Below, in pieces: positions 4,334-34,150 of a DNA stretch of 64,000 nt. Made by a program: the position numbers and the translations under genes. The DNA comes from Enterobacter sp. RIT418 (lineage in GTDB: Bacteria > Pseudomonadota > Gammaproteobacteria > Enterobacterales > Enterobacteriaceae), in NCBI RefSeq assembly GCF_003057745.1, contig NZ_QBJD02000005.1:1-64000 (forward strand). Reading direction: 5' to 3'. Position 1 is the stretch's first letter, and every line of letters begins with the position of its first letter. Below the pieces are notes generated by a model. It saw only the letters and a program-made list of their open reading frames with translations, made no database searches and was not told the origin of the DNA.

Positions 4334-4342
4334 CGCCTCCAT

Positions 4343-5510: not shown

Positions 5511-5517
5511 GGGAGGG

Positions 5518-5560: not shown

Positions 5561-5595
5561 GAATCATCCCCGCGTGAAAAAATTACCCTGATTAA

Positions 5596-18127: not shown

Positions 18128-18186
18128 CGTTATACGTTCTCATCCTGAAACACTTCGGGGAATGATACTAGTTTAGTCAGGCATCC

Positions 18187-18208
18187 CGGCAGAAAAATGG
18201 AGGAAATG
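18187..18208 (-). promoter_or_regulatory. Candidate BaeR box upstream of mdtA
   Basis: The minus strand reads ATTTCCTCCATTTTTCTGCC, about 60-80 nt upstream of the mdtA ATG. It partly matches the E. coli BaeR-box consensus TTTTTCTCCATDATTGGC: the CTCCAT core and flanking T-runs are kept, and the 3' part is weaker. The position is right for BaeR activation of mdtA. Confidence 0.45.
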
Positions 18209-18727
18209 TGGAACACCGTAGGGAATTGTCTGATAGGGACGTACGGCGAGAGGCAACGTGATGTGCTTCCGGCTTTTAGATTTACGCGGCGCAGGCAGCG
18301 CTTTTAAGTAATAGGCGTAAAAACGCAATGCCCAGAAATAGACAATAAAAATTAAAAGAAGAAAAAATAAAAATGGATGAATGATTTTCTAAGATAATTT
18401 CCAATATATTTAAAAAGGCTTAGGAATTTTCTCTAATTAAATATTTTATAGCGTTTTTATATCATTTCATTAACAATCAAATGGTTTTAGGGTGTCGTGA
18501 TATAGAGTATTGATTTAATTGCCAAATTTTACCTTCAGGACGATGCGTGCAATTTGATGTGGATCAAAAATCAAAATTAGTGAAAAAATATGAATTTGAA
18601 TATATTATTGGTTTTTAATTCTTATTAAAATAGCATTGCCGGGTTTTAATGCTAGTTTTGTCGACTTTTGCTGATTTTAGGTTAGGGGTTTTCTCAAGTA
18701 GGTTGAGAATATTCGTATTTTTGTTTG

Positions 18728-18756
18728 TTGTTATGTAACTTAATTCAAATAATAAT
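18728..18756 (+). promoter_or_regulatory. Candidate ecpA promoter
   Basis: TTGTTA (18728-18733), 17-nt spacer, AATAAT (18751-18756). This matches 4 of 6 and 5 of 6 consensus positions and gives a leader of about 90 nt before the ecpA start. The region is AT-rich, so chance matches are frequent. Confidence 0.4.
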
Positions 18757-18851
18757 TTTTTTCGCGCAGCGGTTATTGCTCGCATCTAATGGAGCTTCTG
18801 ACATATCCCTAATATTGTCAGGTAGCAAGTATGTTCTCAGGAGAAGATAAA

Positions 18852-19439
18852 ATGAAAAAATTATTACTGGTTGCCTCTTTGGCTTCTGTATTTGCTACAG
18901 CAAATGCGCTGGCGGACGTCACCGCTTCGGCCACCGCATCATGGGATGCGACCGCGACGAAAGACACGACCAGCATGCTGGTGGTGACCCCTCTGAACTC
19001 TCTGACGTTCCAGTACGCCGAAGGCCTGAAGGGCTTTAACGCTCAGGACGGGGCGTTTGACGTCACGATTCAGGGCCAGGACAGCGCAACGGATTTCAAA
19101 TTGACCGCGCAGGTTATTAGCAGCACGCTGACGAATGCCAGCGGTGATGCCTCGACGCTGAACGTTGGCGTGGCGTGGAATGGCAAAGCCCTGTCAAACG
19201 CCTCTGAAACCATCCTTGTGAACGGATCCTCAACGTCCGGTCTTGAAAGCCTGATGGCCGACGGCGCGTACAACGGTACGAAGCGCGTTAGCGATCGGTC
19301 CAGCTTCAAGTTCACCATTGCCTCCGCCACGTCTGACGGAACGACGGCCGTAACGGATTACTCCTCGCTACCGGACGGCTACTGGACGGGCGACGTGAAG
19401 GTACAGTTCAACGCAACGTGGACCACCCCAACGGCGTAA
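18852..19439 (+). CDS. ecpA: E. coli common pilus-type major pilin EcpA
   Basis: This is the main shaft subunit of the ECP (Mat) pilus, exported by Sec and assembled by donor-strand exchange. The 195-residue length equals E. coli EcpA. It has a signal peptide to about residue 22 (ending NALA), then a mature start DVTASATASWDATATKDTTS, and the family blocks LVVTPLNSLTFQYAEG and DGTTAVTDYSSLP with a C-terminal FNATWTTPTA strand. The start at 18852 is preferred over 18831 because AGGAGA (18839-18844) precedes it and a normal signal peptide results. A strong terminator-like palindrome follows. Confidence 0.93.
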   Translation: MKKLLLVASLASVFATANALADVTASATASWDATATKDTTSMLVVTPLNSLTFQYAEGLKGFNAQDGAFDVTIQGQDSATDFKLTAQVISSTLTNASGDASTLNVGVAWNGKALSNASETILVNGSSTSGLESLMADGAYNGTKRVSDRSSFKFTIASATSDGTTAVTDYSSLPDGYWTGDVKVQFNATWTTPTA

Positions 19440-19450
19440 TGCATCAGAAT

Positions 19451-19476
19451 TCGGGGGAGATCTCCCCCGAGTTTTT
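19451..19476 (+). terminator. Palindromic terminator/attenuator between ecpA and ecpB
   Basis: TCGGGGGA (19451-19458), loop GATC, TCCCCCGA (19463-19470), then GTTTTT. A GC-rich 8-bp perfect stem with a T-run, 11 nt after the ecpA stop and 13 nt before ecpB. No separate promoter for ecpB is evident, so partial read-through would set a high pilin to chaperone/usher ratio. That role is inferred. Confidence 0.8.
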
Positions 19477-19488
19477 AGAGGAAATGTC

Positions 19489-20166
19489 ATGAAGAGATAT
19501 TTGCCAATAACCTTTTTGGCAGGGATGGTGCTGTCCTTTTCGTGCCTGGCAATAAACGTGGGCGATATTACGTCGATAATGACCGCAGAGCAGAGTTCAT
19601 TATCGAAAGAAATTACCAATACTACCGATGCTGCCCGCTACGTCAGCGTCTCCATAAAGCCGCTTTCTTCACCGCTGCCCGATGGTGTGGAAATTAAACC
19701 CAATAATGCGGGCGAGATTTTGCTGACCCCGGCCAACCTTATTCTGCCCGGCCAGGCGAAAGACGTATTTCGTTTTTTCTATAAAGGCCCCGCCGATGAC
19801 AGGGAGCGCTATTACCGGCTGCAGTGGATCGATGAGCCGGTGAGTGAAACCGGCGTAACGCATGCCAGCAAGGCCGCCGTTGCGACGGCATCCGCTGAAA
19901 TCGGTACGCTGCTCGTCGTCGCGCCGCGAAAAGAGCGGTTCGATTACGCTCGACGTGATGACGTCATTGAAAATAAGGGAAATGTATCGTTTCGAGTCAT
20001 CGCCTACGGCGCATGTAAAGACCCCTCTCACGACCGCGGGAAAGGCTGTCGCGAGCGGTATTACGTGATGCCGGGTACGAAAATTAAGCTTCAGCGTACG
20101 GACGTAAATAATAAAAATTCACATGTCGGTATCTGGCATGGCAAACAGTTTATTTCCGCTAAGTAA
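19489..20166 (+). CDS. ecpB: ECP pilus chaperone-like protein EcpB
   Basis: EcpB is a periplasmic immunoglobulin-fold chaperone of the alternative (alpha/ECP) chaperone-usher type, required for ECP assembly. At 225 residues it is close to E. coli EcpB (222). It has a signal peptide to about residue 22 (SFSCLA), the block VFRFFYKGPADDRERYYRL in mid-protein, and TLLVVAPRKERFDY at the domain boundary. EcpE downstream carries the same RERYYR block, so the two are paralogues. The RBS is GAGGAAATGTC before ATG 19489. Confidence 0.9.
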   Translation: MKRYLPITFLAGMVLSFSCLAINVGDITSIMTAEQSSLSKEITNTTDAARYVSVSIKPLSSPLPDGVEIKPNNAGEILLTPANLILPGQAKDVFRFFYKGPADDRERYYRLQWIDEPVSETGVTHASKAAVATASAEIGTLLVVAPRKERFDYARRDDVIENKGNVSFRVIAYGACKDPSHDRGKGCRERYYVMPGTKIKLQRTDVNNKNSHVGIWHGKQFISAK

Positions 20167-20219
20167 TAAGCAATGACGTTTTCCGGTCGGGATTAAAATA
20201 GCGAAGCGTAAGGATGCAT

Positions 20220-22712
20220 ATGTCATTTAACTCTCTGGCAGGGAGAGGCGTTATTCTCTCTTTGACGTTAATTCCTGGGTACCTGAATGCCGCGCCTGTT
20301 AAAATTGGTCATTACGTTATTCCCGGTGCCTTTGCACAATCCCTGGAGCAGGGGATGAGCGTCCCCGTTTATATTCGATATGAGAAAACTGATGAAAAAA
20401 GCCAGCAAAAGATAGCTGATGCAGTTATTTCATTGGATAACGGAAATATTATCGTCAGGTCTATTACGCTGGTTGATTTGCCGGATAACGCCGTGCTGTC
20501 GGATAAAACCCGCGCGATGGTTGATAAAATGCGCGACGTAAAGTTTCGCGATAACACCTCAATCGTCCTGACGCCCGACGCCAGCCTGACGCTTAACGTC
20601 TCATCGTTTCATCTGGAAATGATCGTCAGCAAGGATGCGCTCACGGAAGCAATCGTGGCGCGAAGCAGCCTGCTCGGGCCTTCCAGCGTTAACGGCGTCT
20701 CCAACGTGCTGAATTATAATTTTGGCTCGTATTACAATGATTATAAAAACGGCAGCAGCTCACGGAGCTATTTAACCGTCGATAATATGACGGCGCTCCG
20801 GGAGCACCATTTTAATATCAACGGCTCGCTTTATGGCATTGGCAACAGCAATAGCACCGGCAAACTTTATCGGGCGATGTACGAGCGCGACGTTGGAGGC
20901 TACCGGGTGGCGCTGGGGATGCTCGATACCTGGAACGTTCAGTCTATTGCCAGCCTTAACGCGCTAAACGGCGGAAAAATCTACGGCGTAAGCTACGGCA
21001 ATAAAGGCAGCACGGTTATCGAGAATACGACGCTGGCGCTAACCCCGATAAAGGTATTTCTGCCCGCGGCAGGTGAAGTGCATGTTTTCCGTGAGGGGCG
21101 GCTGCTCAGCGTCCAAAACTTCAATATGGGCAGCTATGAAATTGATACCAGCAAATTCCCCTACGGCGTGTACGACGTCAGGGTCGATATTGTGGTGAAT
21201 GGCCGCACGGTCAACACTCTCGTAAGCCGGGTCAATAAAATCTTCTCGAGGCGACAGCAGGCGGGGGCCGGTTCATTCTCGTGGCAGGTTTTTGGCGGCT
21301 CCCTGGACTACGACCGCGTAAGCTACCGACGTCATCATTACCGCGACGAGGGCAGCGAGCAGACGTGGATTGCAGGAGGCGCCGCGTCCGCCACCCTGGC
21401 GGTGCTGTCCGGGCTCAACGTGAAATCGACGCTTTACGGTTTCGACGCGAACGCCGTCAACGAAACGGACGTGACGCTCAGCGTCAATGAGCACGTGAGC
21501 GTGGGCGCCCAGACGCTGGTGGCAAACGACGGCACGTGGCGAAACGTGAGCAATATTACGCTGTCGTCGCCGGGAGGATTTGGCTCGCTGTGGGCGTCCC
21601 GCGAGGATAGCCATATCGGGTCGCGTTTGCCTGTGCAGGAGCGCGATAACGACTCGGTGGGCGCGACGCTCAATCTGAGCAAATTTGTGCCTCACGGCGG
21701 TTCACTTACCGTGAGCCAGACCGTGAACCGCTATTCCGGCAACAAATATCGCAATCTCGACTACAGCACGACGCTCTATTCCGGTCGTTATGCCACGGTG
21801 GGGTTGCGCGCGGGGCTCCAGCGCTATTACTACAACAACGTCAACGATGACGGACGCCAGGAGCGCTATATCAGCCTGGATTTCTCCCTCCCGCTGGCCT
21901 CGTGGATGAGCCTGGGCGTTTCGAGGGATCGTTACGGCAGCACGCAGGGGAATATCAGCGCCCGCAAGCAGTTCGCAGAAGGGGCGATCAGGTCGGTGGG
22001 GCTTTCTGCATCAACGCGCCTGAGCGGTGAGCAGGCCGGCGATAACCGCTACTCCGTCAACGGCAACCTGGGGTATGACACGAAATACAATGCCGGCACC
22101 GTTTCCGTGACCCGCGCCGGGGATGCCTCTACCAACATGAACTATTCCTCGCAGGGCTCGGTCGCGTGGGCGGGCGGAGAGTTTGGCCTGAGTAAGGAAA
22201 GGGAGCGTTCGGGGATAATCATTAAAACCGATAGCGTGGGCGACGGAAGGCTGGCGGCGAAAATTAATAATCAACACTATGTGCTGAGCGGCAGCTCGAG
22301 CTTTATCGCCCTGCCGCCGTATGCCCAATACAAGCTGGAAATAATGAACGATAAAAATTCGGAAGACAGCTTTGATATTGTTTCCGGGCGTAAAGATACG
22401 CTTAACCTTTATCCCGGCAACGTCGGCATCGTGTCGCCCGATATAAAAAGCATGGTGACGGTATTTGGCCGCATCCGCTATCCCGACGGTAACCTCGCGG
22501 CGAACGTCGATATTCACAATCACATTGGAAAAACGCGTACCGACGATAAGGGCGAGTTCGCCATTGATATCGATAAAAAATTCCCCGTGATTACCCTCGT
22601 TTCACGCAGCGGAAATATTTGCGAAGCCGATTTGGATCTTAACAAGGCGCGCGGTGCCGCGTGGGTGGGCGATATTCAGTGTAACGCTCAGGAATCGCTG
22701 GCCCAAAGGTAA
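20220..22712 (+). CDS. ecpC: ECP pilus outer-membrane usher EcpC
   Basis: EcpC is the outer-membrane usher that secretes and polymerises EcpA with the EcpD tip. The product is 830 residues (841 in E. coli EcpC). It shows the N-terminal GHYVIPGAFAQSLEQGMSVP, the barrel blocks LREHHFNINGSLYGIG, MYERDVGGYR and VQNFNMGSYEIDTSKFPYGV, and the C-terminal HIGKTRTDDKGEFAID and ARGAAWVGDIQC. The start at 20220 is chosen because AAGGA lies five bases before it; the ATG at 20214 sits on top of that ribosome site. It runs 10 nt into the gap before ecpD. Confidence 0.92.
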   Translation: MSFNSLAGRGVILSLTLIPGYLNAAPVKIGHYVIPGAFAQSLEQGMSVPVYIRYEKTDEKSQQKIADAVISLDNGNIIVRSITLVDLPDNAVLSDKTRAMVDKMRDVKFRDNTSIVLTPDASLTLNVSSFHLEMIVSKDALTEAIVARSSLLGPSSVNGVSNVLNYNFGSYYNDYKNGSSSRSYLTVDNMTALREHHFNINGSLYGIGNSNSTGKLYRAMYERDVGGYRVALGMLDTWNVQSIASLNALNGGKIYGVSYGNKGSTVIENTTLALTPIKVFLPAAGEVHVFREGRLLSVQNFNMGSYEIDTSKFPYGVYDVRVDIVVNGRTVNTLVSRVNKIFSRRQQAGAGSFSWQVFGGSLDYDRVSYRRHHYRDEGSEQTWIAGGAASATLAVLSGLNVKSTLYGFDANAVNETDVTLSVNEHVSVGAQTLVANDGTWRNVSNITLSSPGGFGSLWASREDSHIGSRLPVQERDNDSVGATLNLSKFVPHGGSLTVSQTVNRYSGNKYRNLDYSTTLYSGRYATVGLRAGLQRYYYNNVNDDGRQERYISLDFSLPLASWMSLGVSRDRYGSTQGNISARKQFAEGAIRSVGLSASTRLSGEQAGDNRYSVNGNLGYDTKYNAGTVSVTRAGDASTNMNYSSQGSVAWAGGEFGLSKERERSGIIIKTDSVGDGRLAAKINNQHYVLSGSSSFIALPPYAQYKLEIMNDKNSEDSFDIVSGRKDTLNLYPGNVGIVSPDIKSMVTVFGRIRYPDGNLAANVDIHNHIGKTRTDDKGEFAIDIDKKFPVITLVSRSGNICEADLDLNKARGAAWVGDIQCNAQESLAQR

Positions 22713-22722
22713 GGATAAAAAA

Positions 22723-24330
22723 ATGAAATTACTTCCTGGATTGCTTTTTGCCTGCGCCATGCTGCCGGTCTCGGGCCCGGCGCTGGCCCTCACGGCGTCA
22801 ACGCAGGCGGCGGTGAGCAACACGTTTTTGTTTATCGAGAATAACGTCGATAATGAATTTTTCATCACGCCCTCGTCGCTCGATCCGCGCATCAGCGGCG
22901 CGAACACGTGGGTGAAATATGGTTCCGATCAGGACAGCCTGGGCTATATGGGCATCGTCGGCTGGGTTGCCAATACGAATTATTATAAAGACATGTGGAT
23001 TGAAAACTCGCCAATAAGCGAACCGTTCCGCGGGATCCGCTGTACGACGGGCGCTAACTGCCCGTCGTCAGGCTACATATCCGCGGATTTAACCGACCGA
23101 TTCGGTTTCTATCACACGAAAGCGACGGGGGGAGGCATTGGCGGAGGGTATTACGGCTTCGCGTCTTTGGGCGACGCTGCCTATGACTATTTCCGCAATA
23201 TGTCCGTGGGGGCCACAGAAACCTATAACCTCAACTTTTGCCGCACGACGGTCGACTATGATTATGCAGCCGGCGAGCGCTGTAAGGATCAAAGCAGCGG
23301 CAACTGGTACATTCGGCCCTATTCACTGACCAAGGTAGGGCACCTGTCGCTTGAATCAACCAACGCGTTCCAGGAATTGTGGATCGCCAGCGACGGTACG
23401 CCCAGCATCGCCAAAGACAGCGGCTTCTGCGAGCTGGGCGTGGTGGGCAACGTCGACGGCGTGATCTGCAAAATGATCTCGTATCATTTTAGCCAGTCCA
23501 GCAGCCTGACAAATTCGCTGCGTATTCGAATGTACGCCGACAGCGCGCTGCTGGGCTTTTCACCGGCTGCGGCAACGATTAAATATTCCGGCGATGGGCA
23601 AAGCTGGACAAACTTCAGCAGCGCGGTGATTTACAGCAACCTCTTCAGCAGCGGCGGAGAGTATGTCTATGTCTTTCTCTCAAAGACGTTTTTAAAGAAT
23701 ATGGTCGACGCTGGCGTGAGTATTTCGAACACGCAGCCCTTTACGTTTGCATTTACGAATAGCGTGACGCCGGAGTCGGGTTATTATCAGTTTTCACCGT
23801 CGCTACAGCTGAATATTGTGCCGAAAGAGTATGGGATAAGCATATTGACGTCGGACAATACCACCTCAGCCAGCGGCAGCGGCGTTATTGGAGAAGAAAC
23901 GCCAATTGAAATGGATTATGTCATTACCGTATCCGGCCCGCGCCAGGCAGATAGCATTACGGCGCAGGTTACCGGAGACAGCACGACGATCAATTCTGTT
24001 CCTTACTGCCTGTTTACGTCCGGGCAGGACGGCATAAATGTGCCCATTCCGGCGTATCTGCGCTACAGCGACCGTTCCGGCGGCACCGTGCAGGCGCGCA
24101 ACAGCTGCAGCGAAGAGGCCATAAGCCTCAGCAATGCGCTATGGCAGCAGGCTCCATGGGATGCAAACAACACCGACGACGGCAGCTTTTTCACGACAAA
24201 CCTGACGCTGCTGTTTCCTATGAATGACTCCCGCTCTTTGCTCACGGTCTCCGGCAGCGACTGGGAAGGCGTGGTGAGCGCAAGCGGCGAGCTGCGGGTG
24301 ACGGCAAACTGGGTGGGAGTCACGCCATGA
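22723..24330 (+). CDS. ecpD: ECP pilus tip adhesin EcpD
   Basis: EcpD is the polymerising tip adhesin of ECP, which binds host cells and pairs with EcpA. The 535-residue product (547 in E. coli) has a signal peptide to about residue 23 (GPALALT). Two large beta-rich domains follow. The first holds paired cysteines (GIRCTTGANCPSSGYIS, FCRTTVDYDYAAGERC). The second, from about residue 370, starts KEYGISILTSDNTTSASGSG and ends in a strand LRVTANWVGVTP that resembles the pilin C terminus. The start at 22723 follows AAGGATAAAAAA. The end overlaps ecpE by 4 bp. Confidence 0.9.
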   Translation: MKLLPGLLFACAMLPVSGPALALTASTQAAVSNTFLFIENNVDNEFFITPSSLDPRISGANTWVKYGSDQDSLGYMGIVGWVANTNYYKDMWIENSPISEPFRGIRCTTGANCPSSGYISADLTDRFGFYHTKATGGGIGGGYYGFASLGDAAYDYFRNMSVGATETYNLNFCRTTVDYDYAAGERCKDQSSGNWYIRPYSLTKVGHLSLESTNAFQELWIASDGTPSIAKDSGFCELGVVGNVDGVICKMISYHFSQSSSLTNSLRIRMYADSALLGFSPAAATIKYSGDGQSWTNFSSAVIYSNLFSSGGEYVYVFLSKTFLKNMVDAGVSISNTQPFTFAFTNSVTPESGYYQFSPSLQLNIVPKEYGISILTSDNTTSASGSGVIGEETPIEMDYVITVSGPRQADSITAQVTGDSTTINSVPYCLFTSGQDGINVPIPAYLRYSDRSGGTVQARNSCSEEAISLSNALWQQAPWDANNTDDGSFFTTNLTLLFPMNDSRSLLTVSGSDWEGVVSASGELRVTANWVGVTP

Positions 24331-25031
24331 GCCGTGGGCGCGTAGCGATTTTTTATTCAGCACTCCTGCTGGCGGCGTTATTTTTACCTCGCGCGAACGC
24401 CATTTATATGGACTCAACGATCTATGAAATGGCGTCCGACGAGTCGTTTATCAGCAAGCGAATCGTGAACGACGGCAGCAAACAGAATTTGTACGGTATC
24501 GCAGCCGTAAAAATAGACCGGCCGGGAGCGGGAGGCGAACGTCGTGAACGTATTGCAAACGGAGAGCTTCTCTTTGCTCCGCTGAGCTTCTCGCTGTCTC
24601 CGGGAAGCGGTGAGTTTTTCAAGATTTTCTATCGCGGACCGGAAGACGATCGGGAGCGCTACTACAGGATCCTGTATAGGGAGATGCCTATGCTGCTGTT
24701 TCCCGAGAAACGTGGAGGAAAAAAAAGCGAGGCGGTACCCGTCGTTGCCATGGAAACCATTCTGGTGGTTCGCCCCAGAAAAATCAGTTTTAGCTATTCG
24801 CTGGACGAGAGTCGAGGCGTAATAAAAAATACCGGAAATACATTTTTTAAGCTCATTCTGCACAAAGGCTGTCACTCGGCGGACGATGAGGCCGAGATGA
24901 TTTACCTGCTGCCCGGCGAAACGTTTGATAGCGCAAGGTTGAAGGGGCAAAATAAAAAATTCATTGTCGCGATGAAAAAATATATACCCTTGGGTAATGC
25001 CTGTTTTGATGCTCAAAACAGCATCAAATGA
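24327..25031 (+). CDS. ecpE: ECP pilus second chaperone-like protein EcpE
   Basis: EcpE is a periplasmic chaperone-like paralogue of EcpB, 234 residues (236 in E. coli). It has a signal peptide to about residue 24 (PRANA), the shared block KIFYRGPEDDRERYYRILYRE in mid-protein, ETILVVRPRKISFSY, and KNTGNTFFKLILHKGCHS in domain 2. It overlaps ecpD by 4 bp, consistent with one operon ecpBCDE. A stem-loop covers its last codons. Confidence 0.9.
   Translation: MSRGRVAIFYSALLLAALFLPRANAIYMDSTIYEMASDESFISKRIVNDGSKQNLYGIAAVKIDRPGAGGERRERIANGELLFAPLSFSLSPGSGEFFKIFYRGPEDDRERYYRILYREMPMLLFPEKRGGKKSEAVPVVAMETILVVRPRKISFSYSLDESRGVIKNTGNTFFKLILHKGCHSADDEAEMIYLLPGETFDSARLKGQNKKFIVAMKKYIPLGNACFDAQNSIK
25005..25028 (+). 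terminator. Stem-loop at the 3' end of ecpE
   Basis: TTTGATGCT (25005-25013), loop CAAAAC, AGCATCAAA (25020-25028): a perfect 9-bp inverted repeat ending just before the ecpE stop codon. No run of T follows, so it may be a transcript-stabilising 3' hairpin or a weak terminator rather than a classical one. Confidence 0.5.
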
Positions 25032-25118
25032 AAAGAATATTATATTGCTAACTCTTTTCAATAAAATTATTCTGGATCGGGTGATGATATCTCCATGAGA
25101 ATATAAGAGCCTATTCAG

Positions 25119-25847
25119 ATGAAATGTGTGATTAATGAACGGATCGTATATGATTTCAACAATAGAGAGTTGAGTTTATATTCCAGAAAGGTAACTTTAC
25201 CCGCAGCAACGGCAAGATTACTCGCATTGTTTATTATGCATAATGGTCAGCAGGTTAATCGTGAGCCTATTATTGAGGAGGTGTGGGGAAAGCATGGCAT
25301 GGCACCCTCTGGACACAGTCTCAATAAAAATATTAGCCTTTTACGCAAAGCATTTTCTGAACTTGGCGAATTAAATTTAATTGAAACCATCCCTCGCGAA
25401 GGCTTCGTTTTTCGGGCCAGCATCAGAAGTCTGGATCCTTATTCTCTGGACATCACACCGTCAACGGCAATGGACAGAAATGAAGAGGGGCACAACAGCA
25501 ATAGGATATTTTATTTTCTATGGCTAACGGTTGGCGTATTAGTGTTGCTTGCCTCAGGACTTTTGTATTGTGGTTTCTTCAAAAATGACGATGTTACCTT
25601 CGTGCGGAAAATAGGAGGCTGTAAAATATTCACAACGCGTGATAACCCTCCTGGGAAAATTGCCCATTTCCTGCTGACGGAAAAATGGCAGAAGATCCGC
25701 TCCGTCTGTTCAGAAGGACAGCGGGTTATCGTGTTCTATGATGACAACAGTCTTTCAGGGGATAACAGGCTAAAAGAACATTTTCTAAGCGTGTGTCCGG
25801 CGGATAAAAAAGGTATGGCGTATGCGTGCGAAAATTACGTTTATTAG
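25119..25847 (+). CDS. ToxR/MarT-like membrane-anchored transcription regulator
   Basis: The protein is 242 residues. Residues 1-105 form an OmpR/ToxR-type winged helix (LPAATARLLALFIM, VNREPIIEEVWG, LNKNISLLRKAF, LIETIPREGFVF). One TM helix follows at about 130-154, then a periplasmic domain of about 88 residues with four cysteines (168, 197, 226, 237) that could form disulfides. This is the CadC/ToxR/MarT plan: a one-component regulator that binds DNA while anchored in the inner membrane. It starts 87 nt after ecpE in the same direction and overlaps the FidL-like gene by 26 bp. Control of the ecp operon is likely from position but not shown. No symbol is assigned. Confidence 0.8.
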   Translation: MKCVINERIVYDFNNRELSLYSRKVTLPAATARLLALFIMHNGQQVNREPIIEEVWGKHGMAPSGHSLNKNISLLRKAFSELGELNLIETIPREGFVFRASIRSLDPYSLDITPSTAMDRNEEGHNSNRIFYFLWLTVGVLVLLASGLLYCGFFKNDDVTFVRKIGGCKIFTTRDNPPGKIAHFLLTEKWQKIRSVCSEGQRVIVFYDDNSLSGDNRLKEHFLSVCPADKKGMAYACENYVY

Positions 25848-26352
25848 CCTGAGCGTGCTTCTTATGGTTATTTTCTTGCTGGCTTTACTGATTCACGCTA
25901 ACCCCAGCGCGCTGGTGTGTACTGCCCGATATCATCTCGCGTTAAGTACGCAGCAGGATGGGATCGCTATCAGCGGTGAGGTTTTACAGGTTTTTCGCAT
26001 CGCTTCGAAGTCAGAAGGAGTTGTTTCACAGGTGGGCGTGATAACAGTGAATGAGAAAGGCTATTCGGTAAACCGAACGACAATCATAAAGTTTGTCGGT
26101 AAGGACAGCGATGGGTATCTGCGCACCCTGCGCAAGGGGATCGTTAAGAATGAGAATGACGATCTCCCTGACGCCATCACGGATATCCTGATGTCTAAGC
26201 AAAAGCTATTTTTTTATAAAGTCATGCCCATATCCGGGAATATTTATGGAATAAGAGATTTACGTCGTACGATTGCTGTTTGCAGAGCCGACCGGCCGGA
26301 AGGCATGCACCGGTTCACCAGGATTTTTTCGCCCGCCATGTCGTCGTGGTGA
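25822..26352 (+). CDS. FidL-like inner-membrane protein
   Basis: The 176-residue protein has an N-terminal uncleaved TM helix at about residues 5-24 and a periplasmic domain holding two cysteines (33 and one in IAVCRADR). Size, topology and place directly after a MarT/ToxR-like regulator match the FidL-like family, in which a small membrane protein accompanies MarT in Salmonella. A ToxS-like role, stabilising or tuning the periplasmic domain of its neighbour, is inferred. The 26-bp overlap with the regulator supports coupled expression. The start is the first ATG with a purine-rich stretch (AAAAAAGG) upstream. Confidence 0.7.
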   Translation: MRAKITFISLSVLLMVIFLLALLIHANPSALVCTARYHLALSTQQDGIAISGEVLQVFRIASKSEGVVSQVGVITVNEKGYSVNRTTIIKFVGKDSDGYLRTLRKGIVKNENDDLPDAITDILMSKQKLFFYKVMPISGNIYGIRDLRRTIAVCRADRPEGMHRFTRIFSPAMSSW

Positions 26353-26657
26353 ATATAAATCCTGAATAACGCAGCTCTGTATTATTTTATGCTGTCTTGA
26401 TGTGAATTTCAGGACGTTTATGTGTACTGGACCCTGACTGCGTTTTCTCCTGTCCGGATTCTTAAAAGGATTTTACTATGCCCATAAAGCGATAAAGCAC
26501 TTTTTAAGGGAGGGGATTAACCGAAATTCCGACTTAAAACGTCACGCTGCGCCTGGCGCGTAGCGTCTATAAGCCGTTCCATGCGAAATACAAATTCAAA
26601 GGCGCTTTTAAACGGGCGAGAGGATTACGTTGTATAAATAACGGTGTGGTAATTATT
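26353..26657 (+). other. Intergenic region before the HTH-EAL gene
   Basis: No gene is seen in these 305 nt apart from tiny unsupported frames. A -10-like TATAAA lies at 26633-26638, but its implied leader would be very short. CGCTGCGC ... GCGCGTAGCG near 26550-26570 forms a bulged hairpin that may end the upstream transcript. GGTGTGG at 26646 lies about 5 nt before ATG 26658 and is the probable ribosome site. Confidence 0.4.
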
Positions 26658-28127
26658 ATGAATGCGAAAAAGATATTTCTTCTAAGCTATGATATTTATC
26701 TTTTCTCAGGGATTAAATCATTCATACCTAATCTGGTACTGGTAGATGCAAACACGTTTGTCCTGGATGCGAGCTTATTAACGCCTCGGTTCAGCTTGTG
26801 CCTGCTTATTGTGGATACGCGCGTGCCTTTTCTTTGGGTGAATAAATGGCTGCAGCGAAACAGCAGCCAGTTCAGCAATTTCAAATGCGTCGCGTTAACG
26901 ATGAGTGAAAGTCAGTGCATTAATCGGGGATATGAGTCTCTCGAGTCGGTAAGCGGCAGTTTAACCAGTAAGAGTATTATCCACTTTTTGCAAAGCAGAG
27001 CGCTGAATCCAATGGTCAATGGCATAGCGCAGGGTGAGGAGGTGATGACATTTCAGCTTACCGATTTTGAAGAGGAATTATTCAGAGTTTCCTTTGATAA
27101 GGAGGCTCTGGACGATTTCTGCATCGCCAACTCGCTGAGCAAAAAAGCGCTGTATCGCTACAGGGAAAAAATCACCCATCGCCTGGGCCTGAGCCATTTT
27201 AATGAAAGCATCATTTTCGTTTGCCGTAATAATTTGCTTGGCTTCTCTGCGCACGGAAAAGAGCACGCCCACGCGCCGGCTGATAAAAACGGATCGGAAA
27301 GCCCTGAGGCCCAGCGGTTGAGTCTGGCATTAAAAAATGACGAAATTGTTCCCTGGTTTCAGCCCATCGTCGATGGTCAGGGAGAAGTGCGCGGCGTGGA
27401 AATACTTGCGCGCTGGCCAATGGGCCATAACTACGCAATCTCGCAGCGCGAATTTATTCCTCTCGCGGAGCAAAGCGGGCTAATGAGCGAGCTCACAAGC
27501 TATCTGATGAATAAAGTGGCTGAGGATCTTAACCTTTGCCGCGGATGGGGGGATAAATCGCTTTATGTCGCGTTTAACGTCAGCCCGGCGCATTTAAGCA
27601 ATCCGGTATTTTATTGGGAATGCCTGCATTTCCTCGAGCTTACGGCTTCGCTACCGGTTACGCTGATGATTGAAATTACGGAAAACCAAACGCTTCAGGT
27701 TAACCTTGCCCTGAAGGAGCTCATGCGCTCTTTACGAAATAGAGGCGTCCTGTTTGCGCTCGATGACTTTGGTACGGGCTATGCCAATTTATGTTATTTA
27801 AATGAACTCGATTTGGACGTTATTAAGATTGATAAAGTGTTTATCAATACTATTAAGAACGAGGAGCAGACGTTGCCGATGCTGGAGTCGATCATCAATC
27901 TGGCAAAATTGCTGGGGCTGGGCATCGTGGCGGAAGGCGTGGAGCGTGAACCGCAGCATCAGTGGCTTACCGATCGTCAGGTCGACCTGCTGCAGGGATA
28001 TTATTATTTACCGCCGGTCAGCTTTTGCGACTTCGCTTACTATGCCCGGCTTGAACATGCTTCCGGCCTCGGTGCAGAGAAGGGCTGGCGCTATGGTGAT
28101 GATAGCGTGAGGCTCACCGCACCTTAG
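26658..28127 (+). CDS. LuxR-like HTH plus EAL-domain c-di-GMP phosphodiesterase
   Basis: The protein is 489 residues. Residues 1-130 look like a degenerate receiver (LLSYDIYLFSGIKSFI, LCLLIVDTRVPFLW). Residues about 134-195 form a LuxR/GerE-like helix-turn-helix (LTDFEEELFRVSFDKEALDD, KALYRYREKITHRLGLSHF). From about 225 to 470 there is an EAL domain. The catalytic set appears complete: E248 in EILARW, Asn in FNVSPAHL, Glu in EITEN, the Asp pair in LDDFGTGY, Lys in IKIDK, Glu in AEGVE, Gln in LQGYYY. It is therefore probably an active c-di-GMP phosphodiesterase that may also bind DNA. It lies after the regulator pair of the ecp island. The GTG at 26646 is a possible alternative start. Confidence 0.85.
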   Translation: MNAKKIFLLSYDIYLFSGIKSFIPNLVLVDANTFVLDASLLTPRFSLCLLIVDTRVPFLWVNKWLQRNSSQFSNFKCVALTMSESQCINRGYESLESVSGSLTSKSIIHFLQSRALNPMVNGIAQGEEVMTFQLTDFEEELFRVSFDKEALDDFCIANSLSKKALYRYREKITHRLGLSHFNESIIFVCRNNLLGFSAHGKEHAHAPADKNGSESPEAQRLSLALKNDEIVPWFQPIVDGQGEVRGVEILARWPMGHNYAISQREFIPLAEQSGLMSELTSYLMNKVAEDLNLCRGWGDKSLYVAFNVSPAHLSNPVFYWECLHFLELTASLPVTLMIEITENQTLQVNLALKELMRSLRNRGVLFALDDFGTGYANLCYLNELDLDVIKIDKVFINTIKNEEQTLPMLESIINLAKLLGLGIVAEGVEREPQHQWLTDRQVDLLQGYYYLPPVSFCDFAYYARLEHASGLGAEKGWRYGDDSVRLTAP

Positions 28128-28155
28128 GGGAGAGCCTCTTTCGTGGATGCGGGGC

Positions 28156-29511
28156 TTAACCGCTAAACACCACCTGCGCCCAGCGGGCCAGCCCCGCGGT
28201 TACGGAGCCAAAGTCATCGCCTCCCGCAATCGGAATGCCCGGCAGCTGTTCCGCCAGCGCTTTTTTGACGAGCGGTGAGCGGGCGCTGCCGCCGGTCAGG
28301 TAAATCACGTCCGGCTTCTCGTTGCCGTTTTCGAGCGCCAGCTGCACCTGCTCCAGAATCCGCTGCAGCGGCTGGGAAAGCGCCGCCTCAAGCCCTTCCT
28401 GTGAAATCGCCGTGGCCAGGTCGTCGCTGATGAACGGCAGAGACACCGCGTGTTCCGGGCGATCGGAAAGCGCGATTTTGCTCTCTTCAGCGGTTCGCAC
28501 CACGCGATAGCTCAGGCGCTGGCGCCACACCTTATGCAGCAGGGCGACTTTATCCGCGTCCTGCGCGTCGCGCACCAGGTCGTTGAGGAAGCGGCCGTTG
28601 GCGGTGCTGTAAAAATCGCTCTGCGCCGGCACGTCGTTGATGGCGATGGCGTTCCACCACGGCAGGATCGGCAGGGCGATGCCTTTTTCAGTTTGCCCGC
28701 CCATGCCGAGCAGCGGCATCAGGCTTTTGAACGCCAGGGCGATATCCAGATCGTTACCGCCGACGCGGCAGCCGCTGTGGCCGAGAAGGCTGTTTTCGCG
28801 ATCGCGACGGGCGTGCCACTGCGGCCCCATCAGCAGCAGCGAGCAGTCCGTGGTCCCGCCCCCGATGTCGACAACCAGCACGCGCTTCTCTTCCGTTAGC
28901 GTGGCCTCGAAGTCCAGACCGGCCGCGACCGGCTCGTACTGGAACACCACGTCGCGAAAGCCCGCGCGGTGCGCGGCGCGCTCAAGGATGCCCTGAGCCT
29001 GCCGGTTCGCCTCATCGCCGCCCAGCCCCTGGAAGTTAATCGGACGACCAATCACCGCCTGGTCAATCGCCTCCGTCACCTGCGTTTGCGCCTGGTTGCG
29101 GATGTGCAGCATCATGGCGCAGACCAGATCTTCAAACATCGCCACCTGCTGCGGCTTCAGGCCGCTGGCGCCGAGGAAGGATTTTGGTGATTTAACGAAG
29201 TACACCTCTTCCGGGTCTTCAATATAGTGCCCGAGCGAGGAGAGGCCGAACTGCACGCTGGACGGCGTAACCTCAATGTCTTCATCGCGGTTAAAGCTGA
29301 CCGCCCGGCGCAGCAGGGCCTGGCTTTCCGCCGCGGTGGCAGGAACCTGGTGATGGCGATACAGCCATTCGCTGACCGCTTCACGCGTCGGGGCGCAGAG
29401 CATTGACGGCAGCAGGGTGCTCTCCTTCTCCATTTTCAGGAGCTGAGGCTGGCCGTTTTGCATAATCGCCACCGAGCAGTTCGCGGTGCCGTAGTCGAAT
29501 CCAATAAACAC
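28156..29511 (-). CDS. yegD: Hsp70-family chaperone-like protein YegD
   Basis: YegD is an actin-fold ATPase related to DnaK but lacking the usual substrate-binding domain; its function is not established. The 451-residue form begins VFIGFDYGTANCSVAIMQNG, using GTG at 29511 after GGGGA. This matches the 450-residue E. coli protein, whereas the longer frame to 29589 adds 26 unlike residues. The phosphate and adenosine motifs are VLVVDIGGGTTDCSLLL in mid-protein and YLTGGSARSPLVKKAL near the C terminus. It converges on the HTH-EAL gene and diverges from alkA. Confidence 0.92.
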   Translation of the reverse strand: MFIGFDYGTANCSVAIMQNGQPQLLKMEKESTLLPSMLCAPTREAVSEWLYRHHQVPATAAESQALLRRAVSFNRDEDIEVTPSSVQFGLSSLGHYIEDPEEVYFVKSPKSFLGASGLKPQQVAMFEDLVCAMMLHIRNQAQTQVTEAIDQAVIGRPINFQGLGGDEANRQAQGILERAAHRAGFRDVVFQYEPVAAGLDFEATLTEEKRVLVVDIGGGTTDCSLLLMGPQWHARRDRENSLLGHSGCRVGGNDLDIALAFKSLMPLLGMGGQTEKGIALPILPWWNAIAINDVPAQSDFYSTANGRFLNDLVRDAQDADKVALLHKVWRQRLSYRVVRTAEESKIALSDRPEHAVSLPFISDDLATAISQEGLEAALSQPLQRILEQVQLALENGNEKPDVIYLTGGSARSPLVKKALAEQLPGIPIAGGDDFGSVTAGLARWAQVVFSG

Positions 29512-29641: not shown

Positions 29642-30481
29642 ATGTATACCCTGACCTGGCAACCCCCCTACGACTGGCACTGGATGTTTAGCTTTCTTGG
29701 CGCGCGTGCGGTGACCGGCGTCGAAACCGTCACGGAGGCCTACTACGAGCGCAGCTTTGCCTGCGAGGGGTACCAGGGGATATTTCGCGTGACGCCGGAC
29801 GAGCAGGCCCAAACGCTTCAGGTGACGCTCAGCCCCGGGTTAATTCCGGTTGCGCAGGCCTGCCTTGCGCGAATCGGGCGGCTTTTCGATCTCGACTGCG
29901 ATCCTGCTGCGATCCGCTCGGCGCTGGGGGAGCTGGGGGCCGAACGGCCCGGCCTGCGCCTGCCCGGCGCGATGGATGCGTATGAACAGGGCGTGCGGGC
30001 GATCCTTGGGCAGCTGGTGAGCGTGGCGATGGCGGCCAGGCTGGCGACGCGCGTGGTCGAGCTGTGCGGCGAACCGGTGAAAGACGCCCCGGGATACCGC
30101 TGCTTCCCAACGCCATACGCGCTGGCCGCGGCCGATCCGCTGGCGTTGAAAGCCCTCGGCATGCCGCTAAAGCGCGCGGAGTCGCTGATTCATCTGGCTC
30201 AATCGGTGGTCGACGGCGAGTTTCCGCTATCGCCGCCCGAGGACGTCGAGGCCGGAATGAAGGGCCTGCAGCAGCGGCCTGGCATTGGCCGATGGACCGC
30301 AAACTATCTCGCCCTGCGCGGCTGGCAGGCGAAAGATGTTTTTCTTCCGGACGATTATCTGATCAAGCAGCGCTTTGCCGGCATGACGGCCGCGCAGATA
30401 CGCCGCTACGCCGAGCGCTGGCGGCCCTGGCGCTCGTACGCGCTGCTGCACATCTGGTATACGGAGGGCTGGAAGCCCTAG
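29642..30481 (+). CDS. alkA: DNA-3-methyladenine glycosylase II
   Basis: AlkA excises 3-methyladenine and other alkylated bases from DNA in base-excision repair. The 279-residue product (282 in E. coli) has the N-terminal AlkA domain MYTLTWQPPYDWHWMFSFLG, the HhH region LQQRPGIGRWTANYLALRGW, and the catalytic aspartate in FLPDDYLIK. The RBS is AAAGGAGCGACG just before the ATG. It converges with dgcE, overlapping by 4 bp at the 3' ends. In E. coli it belongs to the Ada regulon; no Ada box was identified here. Confidence 0.96.
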   Translation: MYTLTWQPPYDWHWMFSFLGARAVTGVETVTEAYYERSFACEGYQGIFRVTPDEQAQTLQVTLSPGLIPVAQACLARIGRLFDLDCDPAAIRSALGELGAERPGLRLPGAMDAYEQGVRAILGQLVSVAMAARLATRVVELCGEPVKDAPGYRCFPTPYALAAADPLALKALGMPLKRAESLIHLAQSVVDGEFPLSPPEDVEAGMKGLQQRPGIGRWTANYLALRGWQAKDVFLPDDYLIKQRFAGMTAAQIRRYAERWRPWRSYALLHIWYTEGWKP

Positions 30482-33400
30482 TTAATCGCGAAGTAGCTGG
30501 TGTTCAGCAGAAGCTCCAGCGGTTTCGGTTCCGAGAGGGTATCCCCGTAGATGTAGTCGATGCCAATACCGGAAAGCGTGTCCATCATGATCGGCTGATT
30601 GCACGGCCCGGCCAGCGTTTTCATCCCCAGCCGCTGGGCGTGGCCCTGAATAATGGTCACCATCATTTCGTCCATCAGGTTCCCGTGGACGTGCGTGACG
30701 ATGTCCGGATCGAGCATCAGGTAATCGGCCACGTTGGCGCTCAGGTGGTTGAATATGTCCATATCCCCCCCGACCTGGCTCAGCACAACGCGGCAGCCCG
30801 CGCCGCGGAGTTTGTGCAGCCCCTGCTGGAGCTTGACGTCTTCAGAGCGAACGACGTTAACGGGGATAACCAGGTGCAGCAGCCGTCCCGGCAGCGGCCC
30901 GTTCTGCAGATGATCGAGCAGCTCATCGACCAGCGTGGCGCTGGACAACCCCGCCTCCGACAGCGGCAGGGCGACGCCGAGCCCCTTCGTGGCCACCAGC
31001 GCGGCGAAGGTGCGGAAAAACTCCCCGAAGAGACGCCTGTCGAGCGCGTGCAGCAGCTCCCGCTCGGTCAGCCCTGCGCGGAAGGCCTGCTCCTCCTGCA
31101 TCTCTCCCTGGCTGGTCCACAGGCGTAGCGAAATCAGCCAGAAGCTGCACGTTTCCGGAATGCGCGGAGACGCAACGCTGCGGGCCATCATCACCAGCGG
31201 GTTGTCTTTAATCATGTGCCACTGTTCATCCAGAGACATCATGCTGCGCATGCTGTGCGCGCGTTCCTGCTGCGGGGTGTAAACCGTCACTACGCCGCGT
31301 CCGTTATTTTTCGAGGCGTAGCAGGCAATATCCGCCTGCGACATCACCTCCGCGGCCTGATAGTTCGCGTCGTCGAGGATCGTAATCCCGGCGCTGGCGC
31401 CGATACGGTGCAGGCGGCCTTCCCACATAAAGTGATAGTTGTTGATCGAATGAATCAGGCGACCCGTAATATAGCGTGCGCTCTCAACGTTGCAGTCCGG
31501 CAGCAGCAGGCCAAACTCATCGCCGCCCAGGCGCGCCAGCACGTCGCTTGAGCGCAGCATGGTCAGCATCAAAGAGGAGAGCTCGCGAAGCAGGGCGTCG
31601 CCCGCGGCGTGCCCCGCGGTGTCGTTGACGGCCTTAAAGCGATCGAGATCGATAAAGACCAGCGCGTGGCGCTGGTGCGTCTCCTGCACGGTTTGCAGCA
31701 GACGCTTGAGGTGCGCTTCGAAACTGACGCGGTTCGCCAGGCGGGTGAGGGCGTCATGGGATGCGCTGTAGCTAAGCTGGCGCAGCATTTTGCGCGACTC
31801 GGTGACGTCCTGAATGACCAGCACCGAACCGATGTTTTGCCCGTCCAGCGTGCTGAGCGGGGTGATGCTGTAGTGAATGTCGAAGCTGCCCCCGTGGCGG
31901 CAGTTGAGCACCAGCTCCTGATCCATCTTCGAGCGGGATATATCGCCGCTGTGGATGTTCTCCATGATCGGGCCTTTTACCCCGAAGGTAATATGCAACA
32001 CCTTGAGGAGCGGTTGACCGATCGCTTCACCCTGCGGCCAGCCGCTCATTTTCTCCGCCACCGGGTTCATGAAGGTCACGTTCATGTCGACGTCCGTACA
32101 CAGCACCGCTTCGCCGATGGAGTCGAGGGTAATATGCAGACGCTCTTTTTCCTGAAACAGCGCTTCGTTAAGCTGTTTCACCTCGGTCATGTCCATGTTA
32201 ATGCCGAGCAGGCGCTCCACGTCGCCGTCCTTGCTCAGCACCCGGTTCGCCAGCGAGCGAATGTGGCGCACGCCCTCTTTGACCCGAATACGAAACTCAA
32301 GCTTGAACGGCTGTCTCGCCGTCAGCGAGTCGCGAATGACCTGCTCGGCGTGCTCGCGGTCTTCCGGCACAACCGAATCATACCAAAGCTGCCAGGTGGG
32401 CTTGATGTGGGGCGGGATTTCGTAAAGCTCAAACATCCGCTTATCCCAGCTGATAACGTCCGGCGCTAAATCCCACTCCCAGATGCCGATGCCGCCCGCT
32501 TCGTTGGCGAGGGTGATGCGCTCCATCAGCCGCTTATTGACCCACTCCGTCTGCTTGAGGTCGTTGATGTCCTCAATCTGAGCAATAAAGTAGAGCGGCG
32601 ATCCGTCGGCGTGGCGAACCAGTGAAACCGCCAGTAGCGCCCACACCACTTCTCCGCTACGCGTGTAATAGCGTTTCTCCATGGAGTAGGTGTTGATATC
32701 GCCGTTCAGCAGCTGTTGGAGCTGCTCAAGGTCGATGTTCAGATCGTCAGGCCACGTTAACTGCTGGAACGTGAGCGATTGCAGCTCCGCCTGGCTGTAG
32801 CCCAGGAACTGACACAGCGCTTTGTTCGCCTGCAGCCATTGGCCTTCAATTCCTACCAGCGCCATCCCGATGGCGGAATATTCCATCGCGTTGCGAAAGC
32901 GCTCTTCGCTCTCGGTGATGTGTTTACGCTCGGCGCGGAAGGCGTACATCACCATCGTCATGATGTTCGCGGGGAGCAGCATCATCAAAAACGGCAGCCA
33001 CGGCGCGTTAAGCATCGCGTTGGAGTGCTGCGAGACCAGAAGAGAGGGCGCGTGAGCCATCATCAGGGAGACCATCATTACCGTCGCCAGGAAGACCATG
33101 AACGCTTCCATGCGGGGCAAGCGTACCGCGCTCCACATCAGCAGAACGATAATGCAGGTAAATGGCCACGGCATCCAAAGGATAGAAATCCAGCTGAACG
33201 CCAGGGTAATCGCCATGGTTACCAGCGTCTCAAACAGCAGATGGGGATTGCGGTGGCGCAGCAGGTAGTGCGGTTTGAACAGTAACCCCAGCGGCACCAG
33301 CGCCAGCGCGCCAATGGATTCTGATAATACCCAAACCAGGAAGTGGCGTAGGGGTTCATCGTCTGGCACCAGAAGGTGCACCAGCACGCCGCCTACGATT

Positions 33401-33807
33401 GGCGGCACGATGGCGCTGCCGATGGCCAGCCGAACCCAGTCGTTCAGATTTTGCAGCGGGTTATACCAGGGAAGGAGCTTGCGCAGCAGCAGCGCGCCGA
33501 TGCAGGCCTCGATGACGTTAATCGACGTATATATAACGCTTATCGACTCCCACGAAAAAAGTAGCCACGAGGCAAACACGTTGCCAAAGGAGCAGGCCAG
33601 CGCAATGCCGGGCCACATTTTCCCGGCATGACGGTAAAACGCCACCATCATAATTGACGTCGGGAACCACACCGGCGCCAGAAGCGTGCCGAAGCGGGCG
33701 AGCTCAAGCGAGAAAAGCGTAAAAATAAAGGTGACCAGGCCCAGACAGACAAGTCGCAGTAAAGGATGTGAGGAGGTAACCAAAACCCGATGGTGTTGTT
33801 TATTCAT
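30478..33807 (-). CDS. dgcE: Diguanylate cyclase DgcE (YegE), MASE1-PAS-GGDEF-degenerate EAL
   Basis: DgcE makes c-di-GMP and in E. coli drives curli expression through the DgcE-PdeR-DgcM-MlrA pathway. The protein is 1109 residues from ATG 33807, whose product aligns with the E. coli N terminus; a frame from 33831 adds 8 residues. It has a multi-TM MASE1 domain (about 15-300) and three PAS domains (about 300-680, e.g. MEYSAIGMALVG). GGDEF follows, with an intact RLGGDEFGLLLPD near residue 760. The C-terminal EAL-like domain is degenerate: LISL replaces EAL, LSQVGGD replaces DDFG and TLAGP replaces AEGVE. It should be a cyclase without phosphodiesterase activity. Confidence 0.94.
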   Translation of the reverse strand: MNKQHHRVLVTSSHPLLRLVCLGLVTFIFTLFSLELARFGTLLAPVWFPTSIMMVAFYRHAGKMWPGIALACSFGNVFASWLLFSWESISVIYTSINVIEACIGALLLRKLLPWYNPLQNLNDWVRLAIGSAIVPPIVGGVLVHLLVPDDEPLRHFLVWVLSESIGALALVPLGLLFKPHYLLRHRNPHLLFETLVTMAITLAFSWISILWMPWPFTCIIVLLMWSAVRLPRMEAFMVFLATVMMVSLMMAHAPSLLVSQHSNAMLNAPWLPFLMMLLPANIMTMVMYAFRAERKHITESEERFRNAMEYSAIGMALVGIEGQWLQANKALCQFLGYSQAELQSLTFQQLTWPDDLNIDLEQLQQLLNGDINTYSMEKRYYTRSGEVVWALLAVSLVRHADGSPLYFIAQIEDINDLKQTEWVNKRLMERITLANEAGGIGIWEWDLAPDVISWDKRMFELYEIPPHIKPTWQLWYDSVVPEDREHAEQVIRDSLTARQPFKLEFRIRVKEGVRHIRSLANRVLSKDGDVERLLGINMDMTEVKQLNEALFQEKERLHITLDSIGEAVLCTDVDMNVTFMNPVAEKMSGWPQGEAIGQPLLKVLHITFGVKGPIMENIHSGDISRSKMDQELVLNCRHGGSFDIHYSITPLSTLDGQNIGSVLVIQDVTESRKMLRQLSYSASHDALTRLANRVSFEAHLKRLLQTVQETHQRHALVFIDLDRFKAVNDTAGHAAGDALLRELSSLMLTMLRSSDVLARLGGDEFGLLLPDCNVESARYITGRLIHSINNYHFMWEGRLHRIGASAGITILDDANYQAAEVMSQADIACYASKNNGRGVVTVYTPQQERAHSMRSMMSLDEQWHMIKDNPLVMMARSVASPRIPETCSFWLISLRLWTSQGEMQEEQAFRAGLTERELLHALDRRLFGEFFRTFAALVATKGLGVALPLSEAGLSSATLVDELLDHLQNGPLPGRLLHLVIPVNVVRSEDVKLQQGLHKLRGAGCRVVLSQVGGDMDIFNHLSANVADYLMLDPDIVTHVHGNLMDEMMVTIIQGHAQRLGMKTLAGPCNQPIMMDTLSGIGIDYIYGDTLSEPKPLELLLNTSYFAIN

Positions 33808-34150
33808 TACCGCGTTATCCAGGGACGCCATGCCGTCAGGAGCGAAATCCGGACGCGTGAAAGTGAGAGTGGGGTTTATGCTAGTACAAACAATTTACAA
33901 TTCCTATGCCGACTGCTCATAATTTGACATCATAGACTTATTAAAGAGTTACTCTGCTAAAAATTCATCCCAGACGCTGAAAAAACAGGCGTTAAAATTT
34001 AGCTCAGGGAGTGATAAACGACTTTGCTGCCCCTCTCGCAATACCTGCGCATTCGACTGGTATCGCGCAGGCGAAATCCCTATAATTGCCGCGTTTGACG
34101 CTACGGCGTCGTCCTTCCTTAACATCCAGGTCAATCAGGTCGCTAAATTT
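33808..34150. promoter_or_regulatory. Divergent dgcE / udk intergenic region with udk promoter
   Basis: No gene is supported. A consensus -10 TATAAT lies at 34081-34086, with a weak -35 CTGGTA at 34057-34062 (18-nt spacer), giving a udk leader of about 55-60 nt. The leader contains a small perfect hairpin GACGC-TACG-GCGTC (34097-34110). A perfect TTGACA at 33924-33929 has no good -10 at the right distance. Confidence 0.5.

Follow-up and report, generated by a model that had tools for sequence, protein, structure and literature searches.

PdeL (YahA) of Escherichia coli joins a LuxR-type helix-turn-helix (HTH) to an EAL domain and is described as a trigger phosphodiesterase in the available text of PMC5052742. 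It binds its own promoter, activation being blocked at high c-di-GMP, and dimerisation of its EAL domain is promoted by c-di-GMP (available text of PMC5052742 and PMC12564702). Two trigger phosphodiesterases are named in the excerpts of PMC5052742, PdeL being the only one of them that binds DNA. A related arrangement occurs in the Klebsiella fim operon, which encodes FimK, a protein of 470 amino acids (aa) with an N-terminal HTH and a C-terminal EAL domain (excerpts of PMC9487511), and beside the mrk (type 3 fimbriae) operon, where MrkI is a FixJ/LuxR-type regulator and MrkJ an EAL phosphodiesterase (excerpts of PMC3161979). Finally, EcpR (MatA) is a LuxR-type regulator of the ecp/mat operon and a partner of RcsB in E. 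coli (excerpts of PMC5651002).

Here we consider a stretch of 64,000 nucleotides of Enterobacter sp. RIT418 (contig NZ_QBJD02000005.1, positions 1 to 64,000; the window), for which the original prediction had proposed a fusion of a receiver-like segment, a LuxR-type HTH and a complete EAL domain next to a pilus operon.

Domain architecture of the fusion protein

The receiver-like / LuxR-type HTH / EAL fusion protein is encoded at 26658..28127 on the + strand and comprises 489 aa, as delimited from the open reading frame list, Pfam, AlphaFold and residue counts. The frame as listed begins with a GTG at 26646 and its stop codon ends at 28127, but the ATG at 26658 matches the conserved start M-N-[TA]-K-K of its relatives, so the start at 26658 and the length of 489 aa stand. 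The proposed three-part architecture was recovered, the EAL domain by Pfam and the N-terminal folds by AlphaFold and Foldseek.

The EAL domain covers residues 219-453 (27312..28016, + strand; PF00563, E 2.2e-58) and, with 197.9 bits in Pfam, passes the curated cut-off of 31.3. We take its metal, base and substrate positions to be Q235, E248, R252, N307, E339, E342, D369, D370, K390, E426, E429 and Q446. All 12 of these positions are filled in the window's protein, in agreement with the claim that its catalytic residues are intact. Across 32 full-length family proteins, eight of the positions are identical in 32/32 and the other four in 30-31 (these are P0001-P0033, where P0001 is the window's own protein, with the 399-aa P0032 excluded, as were the shorter P0034-P0037). 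Two divergent members, P0031 (D369N, E426K and E429K) and P0033 (D370N and E426G), carry changes at catalytic positions, and their sequences suggest that they are likely degenerate sensors. By its domain and residues, the fusion protein itself is likely of the c-di-GMP phosphodiesterase kind, with a putative activity.

Because a Foldseek search with the whole model returned mainly EAL rows, residues 1-202 were modelled alone with AlphaFold (pLDDT 81.8). The original prediction had called for a fold check of residues 1-220, and this model does predict an HTH, of the four-helix LuxR/NarL type, at residues 132-191 (27051..27230, + strand), with helices at 136-144, 148-157, 162-176 and 181-190 (pLDDT 85-93 by block). 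The same HTH is indicated by the phmmer alignment to full-length PdeL (7pk5), the nearest solved protein by sequence (E 3.2e-43); the aligned part begins at residue 161 and extends across the EAL domain. Residues 1-118 (26658..27011, + strand) form the degenerate receiver-like domain, delimited from the model, PDB fold matches and residue counts, with a predicted beta/alpha fold at residues 4-116. When the N-terminal model was compared with the PDB, the first Foldseek rows were ChrA, FixJ and NarL, and the rows covering both domains were ChrA, FixJ, NarL, RcsB, EvgA and StyR; just two rows reach E 0.001, and their rmsd of 12-18 arises because the two domains are differently placed. The predicted structure thus has the receiver and four-helix HTH of the NarL/FixJ-type fold.

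The receiver-like segment is degenerate, as had been claimed. Among the 32 family proteins, D12 and D53 are identical in 32/32, but Y predominates at position 11 and R at position 81 (after beta-4), and no Lys is conserved at 98-101 after beta-5. A phosphorylatable receiver was therefore rejected, as its site would need an acid pair, an Asp, a Thr/Ser and a Lys, of which only D12 and D53 are conserved. Residues of the HTH such as Y166, R167, R169 and R175 are also identical in 32/32 proteins, a figure not comparable with that of the catalytic positions since these positions were chosen as already invariant in an earlier alignment. Pfam and NCBIfam gave no receiver or HTH match for the window's fusion protein, and GerE of Pfam matched 0 of the 23 family members scanned (the scan alignment took 23 of 37 family-like hits); with no profile match, the HTH rests on one model and one alignment. 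Searching with an alignment of the N-terminal half returned nothing useful from PDB sequences and only pieces of the family itself from the protein database. We conclude that this half is predicted to consist of a degenerate receiver followed by a LuxR/NarL-type HTH.

Genomic context and relatives of the two halves

The fusion gene adjoins a pilus operon, as originally described: homologs of ecpA-E lie upstream on the same strand, with MarT- and FidL-like genes in between. These are, all on the + strand, ecpA for the major pilin (18849..19439; FimblnEcpA, 269.9 bits, over cut-off), ecpB for a chaperone (19489..20166; EcpB_C, 1.5e-28), ecpC for the usher (20214..22712; TcfC and CooC_C domains), ecpD for an adhesin homolog (22726..24330; 420.5 bits, under the NCBIfam cut-off of 900) and ecpE for a second chaperone (24327..25031; weak PapD_N and EcpB_C matches, both under cut-off, at a conserved position). 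Next come, on the + strand as well, the genes for a MarT-like regulator (25119..25847; Trans_reg_C, PF00486, 3.9e-11, then one hydrophobic stretch) and a FidL-like protein (25822..26352; a name kept from the original prediction, with no library match over cut-off). The block of ecp and fusion genes is presumably flanked by mdtA and yegD. Upstream of ecpA, 18128-18830 holds no open reading frame of at least 80 aa, and Rfam yielded no RNA element at the gathering threshold in 18000-29000. The EcpR model NF047921 does not match the window's fusion protein at E 0.1, and its best match in the same genome (30.9 bits) is on a different contig; as the fusion gene is also not positioned upstream of ecpA, an EcpR equivalog was rejected. 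Less than 3 kb from the fusion gene, 30478-33831 of the window (- strand) encodes a second c-di-GMP-type protein of 1117 aa with a weak EAL match (79 bits), which we presume to resemble YegE/DgcE.

A genomic survey of linkage to fimbriae, suggested with the original prediction, gave a uniform result. A search of 392 family genomes with the N-terminal half yielded 21 places, six full fusions and 15 weaker matches, and the fusion lies behind ecpABCDE in 6/6 fusion genomes. Similarly, all eight named fusion loci of a contig collection (Citrobacter amalonaticus, C. werkmanii, C. sp. MGH106, C. braakii, C. portucalensis, C. sedlakii, Enterobacter soli and E. asburiae) are behind ecpABCDE. Within the genus, 8 of the 61 genomes carry the fusion, and in 8/8 an equally oriented EcpA gene, over cut-off, precedes it by 7-8 kb (at the four loci added by this survey, EcpA alone was checked). 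Pooling all surveys and removing overlaps, 15/15 distinct fusion loci of Enterobacter and Citrobacter are downstream of ecp; as this linkage is kept across species, it is not due to chance. These counts cover genome loci only, and one family protein of the database, P0025, is labelled Klebsiella pneumoniae.

In the other direction, no fusion was found at 71 other EcpA loci, which represent 73 of the 74 EcpA places outside the ecp loci of the six fusion genomes (one, on G200, is missing); some of them hold a partial operon (e.g. L140, L147 and L164), and L172 matched nothing. Likewise, of the 12 genomes of the genus in which EcpA passes its cut-off, four have no fusion. Scored against the window's EcpC, the ushers of five fusion loci reach 1414-1514 bits and those of other loci at most 1018, a gap which indicates that the fusion is characteristic of a single ecp subclade. 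EcpR is over its cut-off in 4 of the 392 genomes.

The fusion protein could also be a DNA-binding regulator of remote targets, for instance c-di-GMP or motility genes, its ecp link simply reflecting the travel of a block. Such a reading fits with ecp and the fusion forming an accessory block, found with the fusion in only the minority of the genus counted above, and with the reported target of E. coli PdeL, its own gene (available text of PMC5052742). However, EcpA is missing from 0/15 fusion loci and the linkage holds in two genera whose blocks differ in position: no MdtA or YegD query match was obtained in the stretch examined at the Citrobacter-side loci L024, L026-L028 and L046-L048, so that the block sits elsewhere there, yet with ecp. 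We regard regulation of remote targets as quite improbable. Spread of the fusion by plasmids was rejected too, as a plasmid collection contained no match at 1e-60.

The MarT/FidL-like pair, which had been included in the proposed module, is present in the window but is not a fixed partner. Of 11 fusion loci, only six have both genes and one retains a FidL fragment; the other four have neither, and there the fusion begins 202-512 bases after ecpE; an obligatory role of the pair was thus rejected. At L025, the FidL match crosses stops near its end. Among 13 further FidL-like loci, all except L178 have a MarT-like match and six have an usher match (L179, L181, L182, L186, L187 and L188), suggesting that the pair accompanies pilus genes in general.

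The 15 weaker N-terminal matches provide relatives of this half. Thirteen of them adjoin pgaABC in divergent orientation, one in the window's own genome (G000:C41, L031:8488-9066, - strand) and the others at L029, L030, L032-L037 and L039-L042. The proteins concerned are the clearest homologs of the fusion's N-terminal half (hhalign probability 99.2%, E 3.4e-19), but, unlike the fusion, they are free-standing receiver-HTH regulators of about 195 aa with no EAL domain. We consider them candidate regulators of PNAG synthesis, and hence of pga in Enterobacter and genera related to it. In a fourteenth case (L038, genome G313), a different chaperone-usher operon is followed by the module in split form, as four adjacent genes at 4338-7064 (- strand) in the order receiver-HTH (192 aa), EAL (258 aa), MarT-like and FidL-like. 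The last match, L043, has a different location. Two of the 15 matches cross stop codons, and in NCBIfam scans 10 of the 15 match regions stayed below every family cut-off.

By contrast with the pga-linked regulators, the fusion's N-terminus is not detectably related to RcsA (hhalign 0.6%), RcsB (13.9%), EcpR (1.2%) or FimK (1.0%), and an EcpR-EAL fusion was rejected on this basis; EcpR-like genes of other ecp loci match it weakly (27%, E 6.7e-4, 55 columns). In a tree of EAL domains whose deep forks and bootstrap are not settled, 12 family rows form one group, and the FimK candidates and PdeL fall in other supported groups. From these sequence comparisons we infer that the fusion arose separately from PdeL and FimK; a single old HTH-EAL fusion whose N-terminus was later replaced may also account for the pattern. 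P0038 and P0040 stand near the family in this tree, but at the DDFGTGYANLCYLNEL block each sequence changes suddenly into the C-terminus of the family. We rejected them as stand-alone sister EAL proteins, since they resemble chimeras of metagenome assembly with their junction at DDFGTGYANLCYLNEL.

RcsAB-box-like sites and candidate control of ecp

The RcsAB box consensus, TAAGAATATTCCTA, is stated in the Figure 3 legend of PMC4325325, a source available in part. In the window, a site with two mismatches to TAAGAATATTCCTA lies upstream of ecpA at -148 (18704..18717, + strand) and a second one, with three mismatches, at 18421..18434 (- strand); at three mismatches, the whole window contains eight matches versus 1.5 expected. 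When up to two mismatches are allowed, 19 such sites lie upstream of ecpA at the 11 fusion loci, distributed over 11/11 of them, versus a shuffle expectation of 0.17 (largest 2). Most are near -460, -200 and -170, and in 6 of the 10 other fusion loci a site falls between -167 and -172 (five with at most two mismatches and one with three). In control ecp loci with no fusion, boxes occur in 6/69 versus 0.75 expected, i.e. slightly over chance (two of the 71 controls were dropped, having no EcpA match at 1e-8 or fewer than 300 bases upstream), and no-fusion Enterobacter ecp loci have them in one case out of five. Only 356 bases upstream were available at L026, and 88 at one no-fusion control. The pattern was first spotted in an alignment and tested afterwards, which leaves four held-out fusion loci as the only test that is not post hoc: three of them have boxes, and the fourth has two sites with three mismatches. 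All fusion loci in the box counts share ancestry. On these counts, Rcs-type control of the fusion-bearing ecp subclade is likely, the binder being a candidate only. The string 'ecpA promoter' also appears in a table of hits of a genome-wide c-di-GMP sensor screen, as seen in the available part of PMC13031359.

Upstream of the fusion gene itself, boxes are found in 2/11 loci at two mismatches and in 6/11 at up to three (seven sites, 0.63 expected). None with up to three mismatches precedes the window's own fusion gene, so that PdeL-like autoregulation is without support there. At L046, L047 and L048, a dyad-like CTCTCGT...ACGAGGG lies about 60 bases before the fusion start; it may be a terminator or an operator and is not conserved in the window. 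In the pga intergenic regions beside the free-standing relatives, boxes were detected in 0/13 cases at two mismatches and 1/13 at three, and we therefore rejected the idea that the N-terminal family as a whole recognises these boxes.

Who would bind the boxes bears on what the fusion protein does. The window's genome encodes both RcsA (388 bits) and RcsB (464.9 bits), which could use the boxes with no contribution from the fusion protein. The latter might then be a local c-di-GMP phosphodiesterase only, its HTH a relic or an anchor, with ecp controlled by RcsA/RcsB and the MarT-like protein. This would suit the boxes upstream of ecpA, the presence of both Rcs genes, and another ecp locus, L151, in which an EAL-only gene (13644-14378, + strand; 244 aa) lies 21 bases behind ecpE. 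L151 also has a LuxR-like gene upstream of ecpA. Yet many positions of the HTH region are invariant in the family, P0031 and P0033 keep these invariants despite their changed catalytic residues, and the fusion persists where the MarT/FidL-like pair is absent (4/11) or FidL is a fragment (1/11). We therefore think that a purely local phosphodiesterase is unlikely.

Our preferred reading, in which we have moderate confidence as a whole and less in each detail, is that the fusion protein is a putative locus-specific trigger phosphodiesterase, which would bind DNA controlling ecp and both sense and degrade c-di-GMP. Its receiver-like domain would serve in dimerisation or partner contact rather than phosphorylation, and its HTH would contact DNA upstream of ecpA, as an activator or a repressor, with the RcsAB-box-like sites or their surroundings as possible targets. 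Occupation of the EAL pocket by c-di-GMP would favour a catalytic dimer and make DNA binding weaker or different, as reported for PdeL. Transcription of the pilus genes would thereby track c-di-GMP, whose level the protein would itself reduce, creating a feedback. Taking context and architecture together, it is likely that the fusion tunes the pilus genes to c-di-GMP.

A special form of this trigger phosphodiesterase model would make the receiver-like/HTH half an RcsB partner of the RcsA/EcpR type, binding the boxes as a heterodimer while the EAL domain tunes the complex through c-di-GMP. The contrast in box frequency between fusion loci (11/11, and 3/4 of those held out) and controls (6/69) is consistent with it, as are the boxes with up to three mismatches before the fusion gene in 6/11 loci (seven sites versus 0.63 expected), the presence of RcsB among the fold matches (5o8z, E 2.5e-3) and the reported partnership of EcpR/MatA with RcsB at the same kind of operon (excerpts of PMC5651002). 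On the other hand, there is little or no profile relation to RcsA, EcpR or RcsB (0.6%, 1.2% and 13.9%), and EcpR-like genes from elsewhere, at other ecp operons, give no more than 27% (E 6.7e-4, 55 columns); moreover, the boxes may simply serve RcsA-RcsB, and none is present at the window's own fusion promoter. An RcsB partnership is accordingly a doubtful refinement of the model.

Comparison with known systems

Titles and abstract beginnings among the literature matches listed revealed no ecp-linked fusion protein and, within the same scope, no conserved ecp-linked lineage, box-bearing ecp subclade, kinship of such an N-terminus to pga-linked regulators, or split module. Very few DNA-binding trigger phosphodiesterases are known. 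A lineage that is conserved, tied to one operon and provided with a clear candidate target would make it testable whether c-di-GMP occupancy of an EAL domain switches a pilus promoter directly. It also provides a candidate regulator for an ecp subclade devoid of EcpR. In its boldest version, which we advance as a long shot, the family would be a third, separately evolved LuxR-EAL fusion, acting as an RcsB-partner trigger phosphodiesterase on RcsAB-type boxes of the ecp promoter; it would join envelope-stress (Rcs) and c-di-GMP signals at one operator and replace EcpR in this subclade, and its free-standing cousins would form an unrecognised family of pga (PNAG) regulators.

PdeL is similar in carrying a LuxR-type HTH and an active EAL domain in one chain, the counterpart being predicted in the fusion protein, and 100 of 292 aligned residues are identical between the fusion and the PdeL-like P0074. 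This protein of 362 aa, however, is devoid of the long receiver-like N-terminus of the fusion. Since the fusion's EAL domain falls outside the supported group of PdeL and is preceded by this extension, a PdeL ortholog was rejected. The two differ in addition in that PdeL is reported to target the promoter of its own gene rather than that of a pilus operon (available text of PMC5052742).

The fusion protein, with its predicted HTH, resembles FimK in being an HTH-EAL protein associated with a chaperone-usher pilus operon (for FimK, excerpts of PMC9487511); the FimK N-terminus appears receiver-like too, by eye only. The pilus is a different one (fim versus ecp). Candidate FimK copies lie near ushers at L191-L193, and we assume them to be FimK from their position and length. 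The fusion's EAL domain is 24-25% identical to theirs and belongs to a separate supported group, so that a FimK ortholog was rejected; the N-termini give 1% with hhalign, three sequences being used, and may be related all the same. In the window's own genome (G000:C5), a 489-aa FimK-like EAL frame is located at L194:5884-7350 (+ strand), with no usher match in 14 kb.

MrkI and MrkJ differ from the fusion in being encoded by separate genes, together with the PilZ protein MrkH, and EcpR in that it sits upstream of ecpA, has no EAL domain and is not related to the fusion protein by profile (1.2%). The suggestion in the original prediction of a candidate undescribed system is thus not supported: as far as the available parts of these sources go, an HTH-EAL fusion at a pilus operon (FimK), a split form of it (mrkI/mrkJ) and a DNA-binding trigger phosphodiesterase (PdeL) are already known, and PdeL and FimK between them show the principle on which the ecp-linked fusion would operate.
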